Positions 12,455 through 53,112 of a stretch of DNA of 64,000 nucleotides are shown here, piece after piece; positions within the stretch are counted from its first letter, which is position 1, and each line of letters opens with the position of its first letter. Source of the DNA: Gimesia maris. GTDB taxonomy: Bacteria > Planctomycetota > Planctomycetia > Planctomycetales > Planctomycetaceae. The translations under genes were made by a program, and so were the position numbers. Where the stretch lies: positions 620,001-684,000 of the forward strand of contig NZ_CP042910.1 in the NCBI RefSeq assembly GCF_008298035.1. The letters are read 5' to 3'. The notes beneath the pieces were generated by a model. That model made no database searches, was not told where the DNA came from, and worked only from the letters and a program-made list of their open reading frames with translations.

Positions 12455-13450
12455 CTAATACTTATCCTGATCATCGTCGTCGTCATCATAGTCCAGATCA
12501 TCGAAATCATCATCGTCGTCTTCACGATCAGGGTGTAACGGATTATCCGGGGCAAAGAAGAAGTCTCCCAGTCCCATCGGCATCATATTCCCCCCCAGGT
12601 TCTGTTTCCGTTTTTCAGAGAGCGATTCCAGATCGAGGGCATCTTCTCCCAGGCAGGCTTTCAGTGCTTCCAGCCAGACGATATCTTTACTGAGAGGATG
12701 ATCTTTATCCTGGGCCGCACGTTTCAAAGCCAGACGCAGTACGTTGATACCGTCACGGCTTGAGAAGTCCAGCTTCAGACTGTGTGACTGCTGCAGAAAG
12801 TCAACAGTCAGGTCGAGCATATGTTCGTCCGCAAAAGGGAGATGATAATGTAAGATCATCTTTTCATCTTCCCGATTGGGGTGTTCGAGGGTGATACTGG
12901 GCTGCAGGCGACTCAAGATATAGTCGGGAATTTCGAAAGTGGATTCGTCCTCATTCATGGTGACAGCACAACGGAATTCCGGGTGCGCGGGAATGGTCAC
13001 GCCGGCCACAATCGATTCCACGTAGCGACGATGATCCAGCAGCGGTGCAAGGCTGGCCCAGGACTTCTCGTTCATACGATTGCCTTCGTCCAGCACACAG
13101 ATGCCGCCGCGAAGCATGGCGGTCACCAGGGGAGAGGCGTGGTAAGCGATCTTGCCACTCTCAGCCAGCACGGGAGTGACGAGCAGGTCTTCCGGTCGGG
13201 TATCAGCCGTGCATTGAAAGATGTAAAGCTCCTGGTCTCGCGTGCGCGCGCCTGCGATTGCCAGCGACGTTTTGCCAATACCCGGCGTCCCCACCAGTCG
13301 CGGCGTCAGAGGCATGTCTTTTTCGTCGATCACCAGCCAGCAGGCGAGGAGTTGCTTTAATGCTTCGTGTTGACCAATCCAGTCACTGGTAGTCTGATCA
13401 GCACGTCCCAGGTGCAGTCCTACCCCGTCAATTTCTACGCTTCGCGACAT
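12455..13450 (-). CDS. MoxR-type AAA ATPase with acidic tail
   Basis: A 331-residue ATPase of the MoxR/AAA_5 group (CbbQ/NorQ-like). Walker A is GTPGIGKTS at residues 54-62. Walker B is a Cys-Val-Leu-Asp-Glu-Gly-Asn-Arg segment around residues 118-125. Such ATPases usually remodel or insert metal into a partner and are encoded next to a von Willebrand factor A protein. None is visible here: the neighbours are a PQQ-like protein (convergent) and a CBS protein (divergent). The last 25 residues are mostly Asp ([20 protein letters not shown]). The tail could be a partner- or cation-binding extension. The ribosome binding site is weak. Confidence 0.85.
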
Positions 13451-13899
13451 TCGATCAATTTCTATTAGTTAGACAGTCAGTGTTATATAGGAAGTGGATA
13501 CAGAAGCTGAAACTACCTCAATGTATCCAGTCCTGATTATAGGCGTCTAGAGTCGTTTCTGATAAGTCTGGTCTTCCCTCTCTTCAAAGATGAGAGACAA
13601 ATTTGGTGGCTCCTGTTCAGAAATGTTTTTTGAATAATTCTTTAAGTGCTTGAATCAGAAGAGGATATCGCTGCTAGATACAGGTGAACCAGCAGGTGAT
13701 CAAGGGAAATGTTTTTGTGAATCCGCTTGCCGGTTGATAGAATATACAGGTTTCCCACACATGAAAACTATGACGCAGTCGCGTTATTACATATCTGAAG
13801 TGAGTACGCACGTCCTCAGCGGTTTTGAAAGCATTTCTTTTGAAGTGTGGCTCATTTATCTTGTGTTTCTAAACGCCAATTTAGAAGGGGGGAGGAGCG
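13451..13899. other. divergent intergenic region
   Basis: 449 bases between the MoxR-type ATPase (minus) and the CBS protein (plus), presumably holding both promoters. A plus-strand open frame (13650-13907) overlaps the CBS start, has no motif and is rejected. The one clear element is the strong ribosome binding site GGGGGGAGGAG at 13887-13896. Confidence 0.4.
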
Positions 13900-14379
13900 A
13901 TGGATAAACCAATTCTCGCTAAGGACATCATGATCACGAAGTTAATTACATTAACTCCGGATATGGATGTACTGGAAGCAATCGGTATGTTGTTGAAGCA
14001 TCGGATTTCAGGAGCACCTGTGTTAGACGCCGATCATCGAATTCTGGGTGTCTTTTCTGAAAAGTGTTGCATGGATGTGCTGATTAAAGCCAGTTATGAG
14101 CAACTGCCTTCGTCACAGATCTTTCCCTTCGTGGATACAGAGGCCCGCTGTATCTCCGAAGACACCGATTTGCTGACGATCGCGCAGATCTTTCTCAGTA
14201 CTCCAACCCGCAGGTTGCCCGTGGTGAGTGAAGATCGAACGCTGCTCGGACAGATCAGCCGGCGTGATCTGCTGCAGGCAGGAAATAAGAGTCTGCAGTT
14301 TCGTACGAATCTTCCACAAGAGAAAAATCTGCTGTATCTGAGCGGAATCATGAACCGGGAAGAATCCCCCATTTCCTGA
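13900..14379 (+). CDS. tandem CBS-domain protein
   Basis: A 159-residue cytoplasmic protein made almost wholly of two CBS domains (about residues 5-60 and 78-130), which bind adenine nucleotides and act as sensors of energy state. The first has the typical DIMITKLITLTPDMDVLEAI start and a RISGAPVLDADHRILGVFSE core. The second ends RRLPVVSEDRTLLGQISRRD. An unusually strong ribosome binding site (GGGGGGAGGAG) precedes the ATG, suggesting high translation. No fused catalytic domain is present, so it is probably a stand-alone regulator. A strong terminator follows. Confidence 0.88.
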   Translation: MDKPILAKDIMITKLITLTPDMDVLEAIGMLLKHRISGAPVLDADHRILGVFSEKCCMDVLIKASYEQLPSSQIFPFVDTEARCISEDTDLLTIAQIFLSTPTRRLPVVSEDRTLLGQISRRDLLQAGNKSLQFRTNLPQEKNLLYLSGIMNREESPIS

Positions 14380-14429
14380 CCGAATAAGCACTTAGTTATA
14401 TGATGGGGCTTGAGACAAAGTGAATTGCC

Positions 14430-14468
14430 GAGAAAAACCAGCTGGACCTGATTCAGCTGGTTTTTCTC
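14430..14468 (+). terminator. Rho-independent terminator
   Basis: AGAAAAACCAGCTG (14431-14444) pairs perfectly with CAGCTGGTTTTTCT across a 9-base loop. A-rich and T-rich flanks make it able to work in both directions. It follows the CBS-domain gene. Confidence 0.85.
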
Positions 14469-14632
14469 GTTCCTGACGGTTTGATTTTATCAGCCGGTCA
14501 ACTAAAATCAGGGCCGTCGCCGTTTCCAGGTGTAGAACAGGCCAGTGGTCTGAACCAGGGTTCTCAACGGCGTGCTAACGATTATTTGACGAATCTACTC
14601 AAGTAAAGCTATCTATTCGAAGGACTTGCAGC

Positions 14633-15193
14633 ATGGACCAGGCAGAAATTTTACTCGACGCGGAAGAGAGAATGGACAAAGCGGTTCACGTGTTCCAGGG
14701 GCAATTGCAGGGCATTCGAACAGGGCGCGCGACTCCGGGTCTGGTCGATTCCATTCGTGTTGACTATTACGGATCCCCGACCCCTTTAAAGCAGATGGCC
14801 AATGTCAGTGTGCCTGAGCCGCAACAGATTCTGATCCGTCCCTTCGACGCCGGGATGGTCGGTGAAATTGCCAAGGCAATCACTGCCAGTGATATGGGCC
14901 TGGCACCCAATACCGATGGGCGTGTCGTGCGGTTGAATATTCCGCCTCTGTCTACAGAGCGACGTCGGCAGATGGTATCACGAGTCAAAGAACTGGCTGA
15001 AGAAGCCCGGATTTCCATCAGAAACATTCGCCGAGATGCGAACAAGCACGCTGATCAGTCAGAAAAAGACAAAGTAATGGGTGAAGATGAGCGTGACGAT
15101 ACCAAAGATCAGGTGCAGGAACTGACCAAAAAGTTCGAAGGTAAAGTCAACAGCATGGCGGATGCGAAAGAAAAGGATGTGATGGACGAGTAG
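14633..15193 (+). CDS. frr: ribosome recycling factor
   Basis: With EF-G, splits post-termination ribosomes into subunits. The 186-residue length is exact for the family. Recognisable signatures are the RTGRATPGLVD segment, VDYYGSPTPLKQMANVSVPEPQ, NIPPLSTERRRQMV and the RDANKHADQSEKD hinge followed by a charged helix. The ATG at 14633 gives the standard N-terminal helix. frr normally follows tsf and pyrH; here neither is nearby, so the gene is separated from its common cluster. Confidence 0.97.
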   Translation: MDQAEILLDAEERMDKAVHVFQGQLQGIRTGRATPGLVDSIRVDYYGSPTPLKQMANVSVPEPQQILIRPFDAGMVGEIAKAITASDMGLAPNTDGRVVRLNIPPLSTERRRQMVSRVKELAEEARISIRNIRRDANKHADQSEKDKVMGEDERDDTKDQVQELTKKFEGKVNSMADAKEKDVMDE

Positions 15194-15259
15194 TCTTCGT
15201 CGCATTCTTTTTCGCTGCAGTTACGCTTTCACTTTTCTGCACATTTTTTAATTCAGGAG

Positions 15260-15288
15260 TACCTCGAGTCAACTTGAGGTATTCATTT
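15260..15288 (+). terminator. near-palindromic hairpin between frr and pgk
   Basis: TACCTC (15260-15265) and GAGGTA (15276-15281) form the arms of a 22-bp near-palindrome, followed by a T-rich stretch. Most likely the frr terminator. As it lies 60 bases before pgk it could instead be an operator. Confidence 0.5.
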
Positions 15289-15340
15289 TCAGTATTCAAC
15301 AATTCAAACTCTGTAAGATAAGAGACTGGTTCAACTTTCC

Positions 15341-16528
15341 ATGGCAAAGAAGACAATCGAAAACGTAGACGTTGCAGGTAAAACCGTTTTAATGCGGGTG
15401 GATTTCAATGTTCCATTGAATGACGAGCTTCAGATTACCGATGACCGCCGGGTGCGTATGGCATTGCCTTCCATTAAATCTGTCATAGATCGTGGCGGCC
15501 GATTGATTCTGATGAGCCACCTCGGACGTCCAACGGGAGAAGCCAGCGACTCCAAATACAGTCTGAAACCCACAGCGACCTGTCTGGGTGAACTGCTGGG
15601 GCAGGAAGTGGCCTTCGCGACCGATACCGTCGGTGAAGATGCCAAAGCGAAAGTCGCTGGCCTGCAGGATGGCCAGGTTTTGATTCTGGAAAACCTGCGG
15701 TTCAATGCCGGCGAGAAAAAAGGAGACGCTGCGTTTGCAGGCGAACTGGCTTCCTTCGCGGACATTTACTGTAACGATGCCTTTGGAACCTGCCACCGCA
15801 CAGACGCTTCGATGGTGGCTGTACCCGAAGCAATGTCCGGCAAACCTAAGGTCGTCGGCTTCCTGGTCGCCAAGGAAATTCAATATCTGACAGATGTGAT
15901 TGCCAACCCCGAACGACCCTTCGTTGCAATTCTGGGAGGGGCAAAGGTCTCTGATAAAATTAAAGTCATCGATAACCTGCTGGGAATCTGCGATAAAGTG
16001 CTGATTGGCGGCGCGATGGCTTACACGTTCTCGCTGGCTCAAGGCGGAAAAGTCGGGGACAGCCTGGTTGAGAAAGACAAAGTCGATCTTGCGAAAGAGT
16101 TAATTGCCAAGGGGGGCGATAAACTGATGCTGCCCGTCGACACGCACTGTGGCGATGACTTCAACAGCAATTGTAACAAACAGGTTGTCAAAGCGGGAGA
16201 AATTTCCGATGGATTTGAAGGCCTGGATATCGGACCTGAGACCGCAAAAATCTATGCGGAAACCGTGAAATCAGCGAAAACGGTTGTCTGGAACGGCCCC
16301 ATGGGTGTGTTTGAAATGACCCCGTTTGACGCAGGAACCAAGGCGGTTGCCCAGGCGATCGCGGACAGCGATTCGACCAGTATCATCGGCGGGGGAGACA
16401 GTGCCGCCGCGATTCAACAGCTGGGATTTGCTGACCAGGTTTCACACGTCAGTACCGGCGGCGGTGCCAGCCTGGCGATGCTGGAAGGTCAGGAATTCGC
16501 TGCCGTTAATCTGCTGGACGAAGCCTGA
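15341..16528 (+). CDS. pgk: phosphoglycerate kinase
   Basis: Glycolytic enzyme that moves the acyl phosphate of 1,3-bisphosphoglycerate to ADP. 395 residues, normal for bacterial Pgk. Visible signatures are RVDFNVPL near residue 19, the [15 protein letters not shown] substrate-binding segment, LENLRF, the nucleotide-binding NGPMGVFE region and the closing GGGDSAAAI plus STGGGASL motifs. Cytoplasmic. It has its own leader with a hairpin upstream and a terminator downstream, so it appears to be transcribed alone. Confidence 0.97.
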
Positions 16529-26387: not shown

Positions 26388-26797
26388 TTACTCACTTTCG
26401 TGTGGTTTCGTGTTTTTCGAGGTAGAAGCAACGGGTTCGTTTGTTTGATCGGTTCCCATTGCTGTGTGAAGCAGGTTCGAACATCATCAGGCGGGCGGAC
26501 AGATGGTGCCGACGCTGCGGCGGGGCTGGTCGGGCTTATTGATCTGGTTTGAATGTCTTCTCCGACAGTTTCCTGTTGTCTGCGACAACCCCGGATTACA
26601 TCCCAGGCTATCCGCTTTTTTCGTTCACATCAGCTGCGGATCTGGAATAGTTCGGTAAAAGAACCGGAGCTAACGCGCTGCGGCTAATCTGGGACACGCT
26701 TCTTCATCATCCAGTGGTTCGGGATTTTCATCTGTGGGGGGCGGAGACGCATCTTTTATAATGCTGTGTGAAACGTGAGATGTGAGTGTCATACCAT

Positions 26798-26936
26798 CAC
26801 TGTTGGGCGAGTCAACAGTACTACCCGGTCGGCTCGTCCGGCCGTGAAAACAGAGTAGGGGAAGCCTGGTTCTGGATTGTATGAGGCAGCTGCGACCTCC
26901 TGCTCGCTGCGCTCGGCCCGGATGTATATCTGGGCC
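26798..26936. repeat. REP-like palindromes, cluster
   Basis: CACTGTTGG-gcgag-TCAACAGTA (26798-26820), then CCCGGTCGG-ctcgt-CCGGCCGTG (26824-26846), then GGCCCGGAT...ATCTGGGCC (26915-26936). The first two have the 9-bp stem and 5-base loop of the pair at 16.69 kb. Confidence 0.7.
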
Positions 26937-26966
26937 TACTCTAATCTTTGGAACTGGTTCGGCAGG

Positions 26967-26987
26967 CACTGTCGGGCAAGCCGACAG
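26967..26987. repeat. REP-like palindrome
   Basis: CACTGTCGG-gcaag-CCGACAG followed by ATGGCACCC; same family as at 16.69 kb. Confidence 0.7.
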
Positions 26988-27110
26988 ATGGCACCCGGCA
27001 GTTTGATATTGCTATCACAAAAAAAGAAAGCATACGAAAAATATGAAAGGACACGAAATGGGATGGGGTGAACTGCTGCAGTTTGAGAGTAGAGCAAGCC
27101 ATGACAAATG

Positions 27111-27133
27111 CATTGTCGGGCCAGCCGACAATG
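27111..27133. repeat. REP-like palindrome
   Basis: CATTGTCGG-gccag-CCGACAATG followed by GCACCC. Relative to CACTGTCGG/CCGACAGTG, paired changes in both arms (C to T on the left, G to A on the right) keep the stem intact, which implies selection or conversion for structure. Confidence 0.7.
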
Positions 27134-28055
27134 GCACCCGATGTTTCTACTATGACTGGCATGGTTCTGTCTGCCTGTTACTGGTCTGGTGGTTTGAGAT
27201 TTGTTTTCATCGTACCTGGGAAATCTTATGGAAAGGCATGGGGAGGTCAAGCAGGATGAACAGAATCGGGTGGCGATACTTGTTGACAGGGGGCCAATGT
27301 GGGGCGGTGCTGGAGCGGTGCCGGGGTGATGGGCTGCGATGTGCGGCGACCCGCAGGCATACATCACGAACAGGTGTTGTTTCAGGCAGTGCAAATCTGG
27401 AAAAAACAGGCTGTTTTATAGTGAAGACCTGGAACAAGTGGTGCGTGTTTCAGTGCACTGTAAACTGGTCACGCGCGCGACTCAGTTTGTCGTTTATCGT
27501 CACCGGCGCGCAAGCGTCAAGGGGAGTTTATGCAGCGTGAGTGATCAAATGAGGGGAATAGAAACTTCAGGACTGAACGGTGCTGACTGCTGGTCAGATC
27601 AGATCTTGTCGATCCCGAGACGATTTCTAAAGTGATTGCCTGGGTGGAGTGTTTCGCTCTCCGGTCTGGAGATTTCAAGCCTGGGCGGGATAGCAGAGAA
27701 AATACTTATTTCATAATGATTTACGAGAAACGAGAGTGGTTTCCATTTTGAAAAGGAGTGTCTGATAGTGATATGTTTTGGTCTGAAAAGGAATCGGTTC
27801 CCTTTTTTAATTTCGTATCATAAATAGCTTAGACGTCCATTTCTTTTCCAGGATTGATCGTCCGCTCATCTATCAATCGTTCTGAGTGAAATTCCACTCT
27901 GCAATATATCTGACTGCTGTGATCAGAGATCGCTGACTCACTGATTATCATTTTCTGCAATTTATGAAAAAGTGAATCAGCCTGCCCTGATCAGGCATTG
28001 AATTTCATTCGGGTGTAAAGAGTGTTTCAGATTATTTTTGACAAAGGTGAAAAAA

Positions 28056-29018
28056 ATGAAACAGGAGCAATGGCAGAAACGTGGATTTACACTGATTGAG
28101 TTGCTGGTCGTGATTGCAATTATCGCGATTTTAATCGCTCTGCTGCTCCCGGCTGTTCAACAGGCGCGCGAAGCGGCGCGGCGTTCCACCTGTAAAAATA
28201 ATCTGAAGCAACTTGGATTGGCACTTTATAACTATCATGATACTCACCGAGTTTTTCCTCCGGGGAATATTGGTCGCTGCAGTACGCCCGACTTGAACAG
28301 TTCGGGGCTTGTGCAGTTGTTGCCGAACCTTGATCAGGCACCACTGTATAATCAGTTCAACTTTAACGGCACGATGTATACCTGGGAAATATCAGGCTGT
28401 AACAGTGGATTGATCGGAACGCACGCTGATGATCCTTCAACCAATGGGAATCTCGCGCCTGTGCAGGAAGTACTGCCGGCTTTCCTTTGTCCCAGTGATC
28501 CGAACCCTACTCGTATTCCTCCTGGACAAACATGTTATGCTCCCACTTCTTCTGATACGACGCATGGTGGAGCCGGGAGAACCAATTATGACTTCGTTTC
28601 CAATTTAAGAAACTGGAATTCGTGTGCCCCCTGGAATTCGATCAATTTGACGACGCGTGCCATGTTTGGTGATGACAGCAAATGCAGTGTGCGAGACATC
28701 ATTGATGGCAGCAGTAATACCGTGGCGATGGCAGAAACGACACGATCGGTCCGGAATGGGAATTCGACAGCCTGGGGTTATCGCGGCCATACGATGGTAG
28801 GCGTGAGCTTTGAGCATACCGGTATCAATGTATTCGCCGTGGATGGTGCCGGTACCGGCAGGCTGGACAGCTGGGGATATGCAGGAAGTCTGCATCGCGG
28901 TGGAGTTCATATTCTCATGGGAGATGGTGCCGTTCGTTTCCTCAGCGAAAATATTGATACCACCACGCGGATTAATCTGTCCCGCATTGCCGATGGTCAG
29001 GTTCTGGGTGAGTTTTAG
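28056..29018 (+). CDS. DUF1559 prepilin-like protein
   Basis: A 320-residue planctomycete-type pseudopilin-like protein. The ATG at 28056 follows AAAGGTGA; an in-frame TTG at 28038 is rejected. The N-terminus is a class III prepilin signal ([18 protein letters not shown]) with cleavage expected before Phe, followed by [14 protein letters not shown]. The DUF1559 body contains [23 protein letters not shown] and the typical C-terminal [24 protein letters not shown]. Planctomycete genomes hold dozens of these, thought to be surface or secretion-related, but the function is unknown. The lipoprotein gene downstream is its usual companion. Confidence 0.93.
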
Positions 29019-50200: not shown

Positions 50201-52454
50201 TCTGCAGAAGCTGACCAGTGCCGAACTCGTCAAGCTGCAGTTACATGATAACGACTGGTACGTCCGCCAGTCTCGGCGCATTCTGCAGGAACGGGCACCC
50301 GATCCGGAAGTCCATGCCCAGCTGGCTGAAATGGCTTTCAAGCATGACGATGTCACTCGACGTTTGCGGGCATTGTGGGCCCTGCATGTGACCGGCGGTC
50401 TGTCAGAAGCCAAAGTTATGCAGGCATTAAAAGACCCCAGTGAATTCATGCGGGGCTGGGCAATCCAACTGGCGCTGGAAACAGAAACCCCGACTGAGGC
50501 GTTGCTCGCGAAAATGGCTGAACTCGCTCAGAGTGATCCTTCTCCCGTGGTGCGGTTGTATCTGGGATCCGCCGTCAATCGGTTGCCTCTGGATCAGCGC
50601 TGGGACATCCTGTCTGGCCTGGTCAGTCATAAAGCAGATCAGAACGATCACAATCTGCCTTTGTTGTACTGGTATGCGATCGAGCCGTTAGCACCTCATA
50701 ATATGCAGCGGGCGTTTCAACTGGCGGATGCTTCCAAAATTCCTTTGATCGAATCCTATACCCTGCGTCGGATCGCCGATATCGGAACAGCCGAGGCCGT
50801 CGCTTTCCTGGTGGAACAATTGGGACAGTCGACAACAGCAGCGCGGCAGAAGGTCTTCCTCGATTCCATCAACAGTGCGTTGCGCGGTCGTCGTCAGTTC
50901 CCGATGCCAGAACCCTGGAAATCCGTGGGTAAAAAGCTGATCGCCAGCAAAGACCCGGTTGTGAAATCAGAATCTCTGGCGCTGGCGGTGACCTTTGGTG
51001 ATCCAGCGGCGATGCAGCAGTTGCGGGAAATCGTAGCCAGTCGGAAGAACGATCTCTCGGGCCGCAAGTCGGCACTGGCATCGTTATTGGGGGCAAAAGA
51101 TCCGGAGCTGCAGCCAATTCTGATTCCACTGCTCGACGAGCCGGGCATGCGACGGGAAGCCTTACGCGGGCTGGCGGGATACTCTGCTGCCGAGACTGCG
51201 TCTGAGATTCTCAAACGCTATCCGCAGTTCGATCTGAATGAAAAACGGGATGCCCTCAATACGCTCGCCAGTCGACGCGAGTATGCACATCAGCTGGTGG
51301 CGGCTGTCGAAGCGAAAGAGATCGCTGCTAAAGATCTCTCCGCGGAAATCATTCGTCAGCTGGGGAATCTCAAGGATCAAAGTCTGAATGAAAAAATCGG
51401 CAAAGTCTGGGGCATCGTGCGCGAGTCGGCTGCGGATAAGAAAAAACAGATCGCCAGCTTCAGGGATATGATTGAACGTCCTCATCCCACCCCCGATCTG
51501 AATCTGGGAAGAGCCGTCTTTGCGAAGACCTGTCAGCAGTGTCACAAACTGTTTGGTACAGGGGAATCGATCGGACCCGAGCTAACTGGTTCCAATCGGG
51601 CAAACCTCGATTATCTGCTTTCCAACGTGATTGATCCGAGTGCCGTGATGGCGAAGGACTATCAACCCGTTGTCATCGTCACCGAGTCGGGACGAATTGT
51701 GACAGGCATCATCAAACAGCAGGATAAGAACGCGGTCACCGTCGCAACTGCGAATGAGACAGTCATCATCCCCCGCGATGAAATTGATGAGATGAGCCTG
51801 AGCGATAAATCAATGATGCCGGACAATCTCTGGAAGCAGTTGAGCCGTCTGGAAGTCCGTTCGCTGGTCGCGTATCTGGCTGGTTCACAACAGGTTCCCA
51901 TGAAAGCGACTCCCGATAATCTGAAGCTGTTTTTCAACGGTCAGGACCTGGCTGGCTGGACCGGAAACAGTCAACTCTGGTCGGTCGAAAACGGCGAGAT
52001 CGTCGGACGTTCGCCGGGAATCAAACAGAATGAATTCCTGGTCAGCGATCTGCAGGTAAGTGATTTTGAACTGAAACTCAAAGTCAAACTGACTCCCGAT
52101 ATCGGCAACAGCGGCATTCAGTTTCGCAGCAGCCTGGAACCAGGCAGCCATGTCAAAGGGTACCAGGCCGACGCGGGCAAAGGCTGGTGGGGGAAGCTTT
52201 ATGAAGAACATGGCCGTGGTCTCCTGTTTAAAGAATCGGGTGAAGCCTATGTTCGTAAAGGGGAATGGAACGAGTACCGCATCGTCGCCGTTGGTTCACA
52301 GATTCGTACCTTCATCAACGGAAATCTCTGTACTAATCTCAACGATCCCCAGGGAGCCAAAACAGGCATCATCGCCTTCCAGATTCATTCTGGCGGACCC
52401 ATGGAGGTTCGCTTCAAAGATCTGGAATTAAATCTGGGCCCCAAAGCGGACTGA
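47226..52454 (+). CDS. giant exported FG-GAP / PVC-type dehydrogenase / cytochrome c / DUF1080 fusion
   Basis: 1742 residues. Signal peptide 1-21. Residues about 25-400 hold FG-GAP/VCBS repeats with calcium-binding DLNQDGKTD, DVNGDGRAD, DVDGDGDQD and DMDGDGIKD loops. About 420-590 is a jelly-roll-like region. About 620-1000 is the PVC-type dehydrogenase propeller (VPEGFSVSLVAAEPDVQQP, WGPDGWLYGCHG). HEAT-like repeats follow (about 1000-1400). A c-type haem site CQQCH begins at Cys1436 with a likely distal Met in LSDKSMMPDN. Residues 1560-1740 are a DUF1080 domain. The layout suggests an extracytoplasmic oxidase of a carbohydrate, passing electrons to haem. GAGGGGAATC precedes the ATG. Confidence 0.9.
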   Translation: MARYSLFLLSLLLSAAPLSAAEEFIVHQFERKQLGDKFYAEGATFADLNQDGKTDVISGPYWYEGPEFQKRHEFYPVKEWSINGYSDNFFAFTHDINKDKWPDIVIIGFPGKEAFWYANPQNKERHWKKHLAHPNVDNESPTYTDLTGDGEPELVFHTGGQLGYAGPGKDPTAPWQFHAISPNLKYGRFTHGLGVGDVNGDGRADILEKNGWWEQPAEISKPGFWTRHPFKFTNAGGAQMYAYDVDGDGDQDVITSKAAHTYGLAWFENVKDGDDITFIEHRIMGSKPEENKYGVVFSQLHAVDLIDMDGDGIKDIVTGKRFWAHQGHDPGAKEPPVNYWFKTVRSQSGVDFLPFQINDKSGVGTQVVAGDLNGDKLPDLVIGNKSGAYVLLHKVQKVNEATWKKAQPKKFVPEKVSVKNELKPGEFYATNSEGKRLNVDFELGNLNDWIADGKAFQSQPAKDDMVHPRRTDMRSNHQGQFWVGTFEFLQDKPVGTLTSATIQVDHPYASFYVGGGKHDSTRVEIVDHASGKVIAKASGRNNEAMHQTLVDLSRYQGKEIFIRLVDQHRGGWGHINFDHFRFHDQKPASLKVSNSDARPKDHTQKYDGLPGSKAAEVMTVPEGFSVSLVAAEPDVQQPIAMTIDDRGRLWVAESYAYPSKQPAGQGKDRILIFEDKDADGKFETRKIFQDKLNLVSGLEVGFGGVWVGQAPYLLFIPDKNGDDKPDAEPQILLDGWHYEDTHETLNSFIWGPDGWLYGCHGVFTHSRVGKPGTPDDQRQPINAGIWRYHPTRHEFEVFAHGTSNPWGVDFNDQGQCFLTCCVIPHLFHIVQNARYRRQAGQHFNPYTYDDIKTIAKHRHWTGGQWNQSDRVASDLVGGGHAHAGAMIYLGGSWPEKYRNQLFMNNIHGARLNQDQLARKGSGYEGDFAPDFLFANDRSSQILYLRYGPDGQVYFIDWYDTNQCHNREFQKHDRSNGRIFRVAYNNAKPVQVDLQKLTSAELVKLQLHDNDWYVRQSRRILQERAPDPEVHAQLAEMAFKHDDVTRRLRALWALHVTGGLSEAKVMQALKDPSEFMRGWAIQLALETETPTEALLAKMAELAQSDPSPVVRLYLGSAVNRLPLDQRWDILSGLVSHKADQNDHNLPLLYWYAIEPLAPHNMQRAFQLADASKIPLIESYTLRRIADIGTAEAVAFLVEQLGQSTTAARQKVFLDSINSALRGRRQFPMPEPWKSVGKKLIASKDPVVKSESLALAVTFGDPAAMQQLREIVASRKNDLSGRKSALASLLGAKDPELQPILIPLLDEPGMRREALRGLAGYSAAETASEILKRYPQFDLNEKRDALNTLASRREYAHQLVAAVEAKEIAAKDLSAEIIRQLGNLKDQSLNEKIGKVWGIVRESAADKKKQIASFRDMIERPHPTPDLNLGRAVFAKTCQQCHKLFGTGESIGPELTGSNRANLDYLLSNVIDPSAVMAKDYQPVVIVTESGRIVTGIIKQQDKNAVTVATANETVIIPRDEIDEMSLSDKSMMPDNLWKQLSRLEVRSLVAYLAGSQQVPMKATPDNLKLFFNGQDLAGWTGNSQLWSVENGEIVGRSPGIKQNEFLVSDLQVSDFELKLKVKLTPDIGNSGIQFRSSLEPGSHVKGYQADAGKGWWGKLYEEHGRGLLFKESGEAYVRKGEWNEYRIVAVGSQIRTFINGNLCTNLNDPQGAKTGIIAFQIHSGGPMEVRFKDLELNLGPKAD

Positions 52455-52461
52455 TCGCACC

Positions 52462-52502
52462 ACGGTCAAACTGGTTTTCACCGTGAAAGCCAGTTTGACC
52501 GT
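52462..52502 (+). terminator. long hairpin after the giant dehydrogenase gene
   Basis: ACGGTCAAACTGG (52462-52474) and CCAGTTTGACCGT (52490-52502) pair perfectly, and the stem extends inward with one mismatch to a CCG loop. There is no U-tract, so it may protect the mRNA end rather than act as a classical terminator. Confidence 0.6.
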
Positions 52503-52551
52503 CTGTCAGCTCCTTTCGCATCGACGTCAGTCGCCTGTCGGAAAAAACTGA

Positions 52552-53076
52552 ATAAACTCCCCTTGACGCCTGCGCGCCGACGACGATAAACGCTAAAATG
52601 AGTCGCGCGCGTGACCAGTTTGCAGTGCACTGAAACATACGCCACTTGTTCTTGATCGTCACTATAAAACAGCCTGTTTTTTCCAGATAATCAGTTCTCA
52701 GATCAGCACCCGTTCCTGATGTATGCCTGCGGGTCGCCACACATCGCAGCCCTTCGTTCCGGCACCGCCACTGATCACTCCAGCATCGGTCCCATATCAA
52801 CAGATATCGCCATGTTTTATCGTTCATCCCTCTTGACCTCCCCACGCCCTTCCACAAAATAATCCACCATGCAACGGCATACATACCACAGATCGAACAC
52901 GAGACAGACCCCGATAACAATAACAAATATCAATGTCCTCTCACCTGCGCGGGTGAGACTGTCGGCCTGCCCGACAGGGCTTACGTAAACAGCACCACGA
53001 TCTGGTTGACCCGCCCCCCCCAAAAAAATAATTATAAAGATCAGCTCCGAAGCACCGCAGATGAAAATCCCGAACC
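52552..53076 (-). repeat. long dispersed repeat, copy B (inverted)
   Basis: On the minus strand this matches copy A at 26716-27540. The exact 19-mer lies at 53058-53076, and the core from CTCCCC near 52840 to TAAACTCCCCTTGACG at 52553 lines up with only point differences and small gaps. It carries one REP-like palindrome where copy A carries several. It sits between the 3' ends of the giant dehydrogenase gene and the kinase gene, which converge on it. Confidence 0.75.
52959..52977. repeat. REP-like palindrome
   Basis: CTGTCGG-cctgc-CCGACAG, the same stem as at 16.69 and 27.0 kb. A second small hairpin TCACC-tgcgc-GGGTGA lies just before (52941-52956). Confidence 0.7.
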
Positions 53077-53112
53077 AGTAAACACCGATCACGGACTGGA
53101 AGAATCGGATAG

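Follow-up and report, generated by a model that had tools for sequence, protein, structure and literature searches.

Evenly spaced, gene-like repeats in the chromosomes of Gimesia: a family of about fifty putative transcription units per genome that may mark chromosome domains

Two inverted copies of the repeat and their promoter motif

The window, i.e., the entire stretch of 64,000 nucleotides of the Gimesia maris genome (G000) that was analyzed, contains two inverted copies of a repeat, copy A on the plus strand and copy B on the minus strand, which were recovered at the coordinates and in the orientations proposed by a sequence-only reading of this DNA (Table 1). That reading had reported a shared exact 19-mer and a core of about 300 bp. 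BLASTN comparison of positions 27223-27535 (plus) and 52860-52548 (minus) revealed 81% identity over 314 columns, including 2 gap columns (E value of 2e-78, far beyond chance), with an identical run of 30 nt that exceeds the 19-mer. A second block common to both copies, TGGTTCGGGATTTTCATCTG, located at approximately 26716 in copy A and 53076 in copy B, forms part of the promoter motif. As had been noticed, the stretch between the promoter and the core is longer in copy A than in copy B and contains REP-like palindromes. The absence of a transposase was also correctly stated, the ORFs of the two copies being too short (165 and 170 residues in the sense orientation), and the sense ORFs did not match any Pfam family above the cutoff. 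The 25.3 kb separating copies A and B make them the second-closest pair of neighbors in the genome, the closest pair being 18.7 kb apart. Downstream of copy A, the gene at 28038-29018 (plus), which we take to resemble the DUF1559 pilin-like family, is a member of a very large family, since its first segment of ~180 nt matches more than 100 places in Gimesia genomes.

Table 1. Features of the two copies, in window coordinates (G000:C1 coordinates where indicated)
Feature	Position	Strand	Remarks
Copy A promoter block, TGGTTCGGGATTTTCATCTG ... TATAAT	26716..26762	+	Common to copy B; upstream of most copies
Copy A motif TTCATCTG-N22-TATAAT	26727-26762 (G000:C1:646727-646762)	+	Exact pattern match
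Copy A leader	26763..27211	+	Varies between copies; REP-like palindromes, e.g., 26890-26923, 26966-26997, and 27110-27140
Copy A sense ORF, 165 aa	27043..27540	+	Second in-frame ATG at 27058, preceded by AAAGGA
Copy A core, ~325 nt	27212..27536	+	Profile HMM and covariance-type sequence model
Copy A 5' end direct repeat around GTCAAG	27235..27254	+	Sequence reading; conserved alignment columns
Copy A ~10.5-nt phased YGA array	27266..27360 (approximate limits)	+	Alignment columns 55-150
Copy A 3' end direct repeat around GTCAAG	27505..27524	+	Sequence reading; conserved alignment columns
Copy B core, ~325 nt	52547..52871	-	Family model
Copy B sense ORF, 170 aa from TTG	52414..52926	-	In-frame ATG at ~52884, with no SD apparent
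Copy B promoter block ending in TATAAT	53031..53077	-	Exact pattern match
Copy B motif TTCATCTG-N21-TATAAT	53031-53065 (G000:C1:673031-673065)	-	Exact pattern match

The usual order within a copy is the promoter motif, then a leader that differs in length and often contains REP-like palindromes, and finally a core of ~320 nt with sharp ends, both of which carry similar direct repeats around GTCAAG. The promoter motif was shown to be specific to the repeat family. In its exact form, TTCATCTGN{21,22}TANRAT, the motif matched 27 places in the genome versus 2 for the reversed control, and 25 of these 27 matches precede a same-strand copy by 149 to 517 nt, thereby accounting for 23 of the 52 copies of the genome. 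A looser form of the motif was present at most 600 nt upstream of 82 of the 132 distinct copies identified genus-wide, versus 2/130 for both the downstream and the reverse-strand controls. The palindromic REP-like units are separate from the core and belong to the leaders. A REP-like 18-mer occurs 41 times as an exact match, and 13 of these occurrences precede a same-strand core by no more than 1.8 kb (0.25 expected). Eight exact 18-mers are present within 7 kb at G000:C1:21075-27868, five of them spaced by ~273 bp. With respect to membership in the REP or ERIC type, the consensus fold of the core did not contain any long palindrome.

Conservation of the core is periodic between alignment columns 55 and 150, with a period of 10.6 to 10.9 nt in alignment A1, which is rich in clade I sequences (0/3,000 permutations). 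In the genus-wide alignment, periodicity was detected at 10.2 to 10.9 nt (P = 0.0073) and at 5.1 to 5.5 nt (0/4,000). Periodic conservation was not significant over the whole core (0.089) or outside columns 55 to 150 (0.16). Regular YC steps in a C-rich strand are a trait of Rho loading sites, and phased stretches are a trait of gyrase-like wrapping. The antisense strand of the core is C-rich with YC steps every 10 to 11 nt, and many copies end near a convergent gene. Together with the periodicity, these features are consistent with a topological or termination site on the opposite strand, either Rho-loading-like or a phased stretch that would wrap DNA as gyrase does. We give this explanation the least credence of those considered here: it accounts neither for the conserved state of the remaining 230 nt nor for the promoter and the ORF.

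Number, spacing, and inheritance of the copies

The repeat had been proposed to belong to an unnamed dispersed family, and searches of the genome bore this out. BLASTN with copy B as the query returned 40 places at E ≤ 0.1. A family model (R1) built from the sequences of 84 diverse cores returned 57 matches at E ≤ 1; copy counts for this genome are based on the 52 matches that had E < 1e-6. A repeat restricted to two copies was therefore rejected. With the sequence model, copies were detected in every one of the 17 Gimesia genomes searched. Nine single-contig genomes contained 49 to 59 copies each at E ≤ 0.01, as counted among the best 98 candidates at most per genome, and six had 39 (G003) to 58 copies at E ≤ 1e-5. 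Outside Gimesia, weak matches (E values of 1.9e-4 and 3.8e-4) were obtained for 2 of 153 genomes of the order in a scan with stricter filters that lose weak matches. An exact core pattern matched 32 stretches of public contigs, from the metagenome-assembled genomes Gimesia sp. SAT87 and Planctomycetaceae HKST-UBA69. A phrasing-limited survey of titles and abstract openings of open papers did not reveal any description of the family.

The copies are distributed along the chromosome in a nonrandom manner, as would be expected of a chromosome-organizing family. In G. maris, the coefficient of variation (CV) of the gaps between the 52 copies was 0.56 versus ~0.97 for random placement. Spacing was more even than chance in all of the seven complete genomes (gap CV of 0.56 to 0.74; mean spacing of 133 to 190 kb). 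Among 10,000 random draws, as even a spacing was obtained in none for G012, G009, G014, and G000, in 7 for G013, in 79 for G016, and in 83 for G003; the seven tests are not independent because the genomes share ancestry. Over-even spacing was again observed with strong matches alone in the three genomes tested, and the largest gaps of G013 and G016 were not unusual (P = 0.29 and 0.68, respectively). Unlike this evenly spaced family, the REP-like repeat of the G. maris genome is clustered (gap CV of 1.74, or 1.17 for 24 collapsed clusters). The over-even spacing could alternatively arise through loss of close copies by recombination.

Positions are largely inherited. For approximately 30 of the 38 loci of the G. 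maris genome, G014 or G011 has a copy bordered by matching sequence. Comparison of flanks between clades, based on 71 sampled loci, matched 13 loci of G. maris, nine of which were consistent in side and orientation and four of which were not; one of the nine (L019) depends on a repeated helix-turn-helix (HTH) gene. In the clearest cases (L018, L022, L027, L033, and L037), the distances between the core and the neighboring gene were similar, those of L026 being looser.

The sequence-only reading had considered a nonautonomous mobile element, which would here be an old one that spread before the radiation of the genus and is now decaying. The family is multicopy with similar direct repeats at both ends, copies have been lost at two loci of G014 (L002 and L009, both occupied in G011 and replaced in G014 by other sequence), and cores have been replaced between matching flanks at two loci (L017/L136 and L025/L142), where they are only ~81% alike. 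These observations would fit such an element, whereas the inherited and over-even positions, the stable copy number, and the family-specific promoter do not. Among the loci whose flanks were compared, excluding L027 and L004 with only one matched flank, none presented a clean empty site bearing a target duplication. Searches of phages and plasmids with one copy as the query and of viral contigs with one exact pattern did not return any match. The proposal was thus not supported, and we consider it very improbable. The G014 stretch devoid of the L002 copy (L183, G014:C1:414001-434000, at ~13300-15400) contains REP-like sequence and what we presume to be a transposase-like gene.

Cores resemble each other by clade. 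Within genomes, the median identity of cores was 0.73 to 0.79 in nine of ten genomes, the exception being G007 with two copies (0.63). Identity between clades was 0.60 to 0.64, reaching 0.66 to 0.68 for G007 compared to G013 and G016. For ten cross-clade pairs occupying the same position, identity was 0.60 to 0.68, below the median for paralogs of the same genome in nine of the ten pairs; at the divergent locus L037, same-position and own-paralog identities were about equal. Since cores are alike by clade and not by position, the history of the positions differs from that of the core sequences, a pattern that gene conversion or co-selection would produce.

An open reading frame with start signals and the question of a product

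A stop-free frame spans the core in the sense orientation in 50 of the 84 diverse cores and in the antisense orientation in 2. Column shuffling of these cores left 11.9 open sense frames on average and 28 at most in 200 runs. Shuffling of the first 73 rows in blocks of 20, a stricter control, retained 33.5 on average and 47 at most in 200 runs versus 46/73 observed; by this measure, clade I has a modest surplus of open frames. Among 60 divergent copies, 30 had a sense frame without stops versus a mean of 4.9 under a dinucleotide-Markov model (maximum 10 of 30); the corresponding antisense number was 12 versus a mean of 14.2. A unique open frame exists in only 64 of the 141 distinct copies, 60 of which have enough flanking sequence for starts to be examined. 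In these 60, SD-ATG combinations were distributed 30:1:1 over the three phases in favor of the open frame, half of the copies thus carrying an in-phase start signal, whereas ATGs as a whole were distributed 80 in the open phase versus 57 and 32 in the others. The 30 SD-ATG copies are related and therefore not all independent, though their N-termini are of many kinds. The ORF starting at an SD-ATG spans more than half of the core in 57 of 136 copies and more than 90% in 41. The phase bias of these starts suggests that the sense ORF may be translated.

Amino acids did not appear to be the conserved layer, as had been argued from copies A and B. For 23 same-locus pairs of G000 and G014, pN/pS was 1.08 in the open frame versus 0.83 to 0.89 in the other sense frames and 0.74 to 0.95 in the antisense frames. 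Pooling of 530 divergent pairs gave 0.98 in the open frame versus 1.05 and 0.92 in the others. Pooled values therefore did not reveal purifying selection on amino acids, even though single close pairs ranged from 0.33 to 4.63, with some low values (0.33 to 0.42). Codon-position entropy in clade I was only slightly biased (0.83/0.73/0.73). The reading frame drifts between clades: for 21 SD-ATG ORFs, the coding phase agreed between clades at 0.38 to 0.40 of the positions in the first half, at 0.89 in columns 160 to 240, and at 0.57 and then 0.35 further on. Amino acid similarity between clades had a z score of 1.8 in the coding phase, compared to -6.3 and +6.1 in the two remaining phases of the sense strand (150/178 pairs), indicating that this test is dominated by mutation bias. 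In 15 same-locus pairs, stops occurred in 4 of 354 differing codons of the open frame versus 20 to 30 of ~360 in the other sense frames, a weak test because the open frame was picked for few stops. The sequence-only reading was thus right about the family and the nonconserved amino acids but overlooked the promoter and the translated-looking ORF. Whatever its function, an ORF that has start signals but lacks pooled amino acid constraint, in a sequence conserved at the nucleotide level, is puzzling.

The copies could encode fast-evolving, small, basic proteins, perhaps similar to type I toxins, with an antisense promoter giving rise to an RNA that would overlap the region of the start. According to this account, pN/pS is close to 1 because many copies decay. 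The phases of the SD-ATGs and the extent of the ORFs over the core argue for such proteins, as do the low pN/pS of some close pairs and the hydrophobic N-termini of some copies; a transmembrane N-terminus was rejected as a general feature, since it is limited to these copies. On the reverse strand, the end positions A12, T16, A38, and A39, invariant in 84 copies, fit a candidate promoter of the type TTGAC-N16-xAxAAT. Protein profiles of clade I and clade II/IV matched over 68 columns of the second half (probability of 96.6; E value of 7e-10), although this match may stem from nucleotide conservation in one frame. The pooled pN/pS values and the poor agreement of the coding phase in the first half stand against small proteins. 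The proteins tried did not match Pfam, NCBIfam, PHROGs, or PDB above the cutoffs, and two AlphaFold models had no confident fold (pLDDT of 50 and 43). Type I toxin-antitoxin loci are multicopy and intergenic, with a small ORF and an overlapping antisense promoter, the last being a candidate feature in Gimesia. Unlike those loci, the Gimesia family has ORFs of ~70 to 165 residues or longer, which lack pooled amino acid constraint and whose frame is not kept between clades. On balance, we regard a family of small proteins as unlikely.

A structured regulatory RNA family, with each copy acting as one small RNA gene, was the other proposal of the sequence-only reading. The family-specific promoter and the strong blocks of nucleotide conservation agree with this possibility, and RNAalifold analysis of 84 diverse copies predicted 13 pairs over 346 columns, 11 of which displayed at least one double change. 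However, the consensus fold had an energy of only -8.0 kcal/mol and its covariation term was -0.66, the strongest covarying columns were mostly noncomplementary, and no Rfam family matched within the window at the gathering thresholds. Conserved secondary structure with covariation was thus not detected by these analyses and, in view of the ORF signal of the sense strand, the proposal was not supported; we consider it improbable.

A possible role in the organization of the chromosome

We tentatively favor, at somewhat less than even chances, the explanation that the repeats form a family of gene-like units, about 50 in each Gimesia genome, that is transmitted vertically and whose evenly spaced members, as putative transcription units, would mark or anchor chromosome domains. 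The inherited, even positions and the joint change of the cores in each lineage suggest a chromosome-organizing role rather than jumping. In combination with the family-specific promoter, the over-even positions and the joint evolution of the cores point to a function that the copies exert as a set. Selection would act on the nucleic acid and not on the peptide. The common promoter would drive coordinated transcription sustained by translating ribosomes, and/or a putative protein would read the helically phased array. Transcription, the array-reading protein, or both would then mark or anchor domains of roughly 130 to 190 kb, and gene conversion, or co-evolution with the putative protein, would keep the sites of a lineage alike.

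In E. coli, one strong transcription unit suffices to form a contact domain, which was reported to be unchanged by the introduction of two stop codons (PMC10948358). Since the E. coli domain is indifferent to stop codons, a model based on transcription and domains can dispense with an ORF, and any requirement for an open frame would therefore have to stem from Rho protection, membrane coupling, or the peptide. A more elaborate version of the domain explanation, which we hold to be doubtful, is that of a built-in ruler. Approximately 50 co-regulated, evenly spaced units would set domains or anchors by means of peptide-neutral translated ORFs and phased arrays, and the copies of a lineage would evolve in step with a single DNA-binding factor, in the way that satellite DNA and centromere proteins do. 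If the domain explanation is correct, a bacterial genus encodes the spacing of its chromosome in a dedicated family of transcribed sequences, in a phylum, the planctomycetes, that is known for unusual nucleoids. It would also offer a direct experimental handle on the setting of domains and a bacterial case of about fifty dispersed loci evolving together.

Several known systems share part of these features. Like REP/BIME, ERIC, and STAR elements, the Gimesia repeats are dispersed intergenic units present in tens of copies. ERIC-type units have been reported in silico to carry ORFs (PMC2759123), and STAR elements are comparable intergenic repeats (PMC3532100). Unlike these elements, the Gimesia repeats have a promoter of their own and SD starts in phase with the ORF; they are also over-evenly spaced, occupy inherited positions, and resemble each other by clade. 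The matS/MatP and Noc-binding sites are similarly present as tens of sites around one chromosome. These are short protein-binding sites and not transcription units, whereas the Gimesia unit comprises ~320 nt in addition to a promoter and an ORF, with a putative binding protein. Transcription-induced and chromosomal interaction domains provide a third parallel, since transcription units placed at intervals could divide the chromosome. Known domain boundaries are ordinary, strongly expressed genes, unlike the putative transcription units of Gimesia.

A small HTH gene, encoding a protein of the MTD...RRSVERYLTRARREM type that we take to resemble the small subunit of terminases, starts divergently 45 to 60 nt upstream of the core at L019, L156, L033, L045, and L199, the last two being one and the same locus. 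This gene was rejected as a partner of the repeat, since it was found beside only 5 of 133 copies. Finally, a copy is present 9 to 35 kb from the start of the contig in each of G003, G009, G012, G013, G014, G016, and G000; if these contigs start at dnaA, one copy would always be located near the origin.
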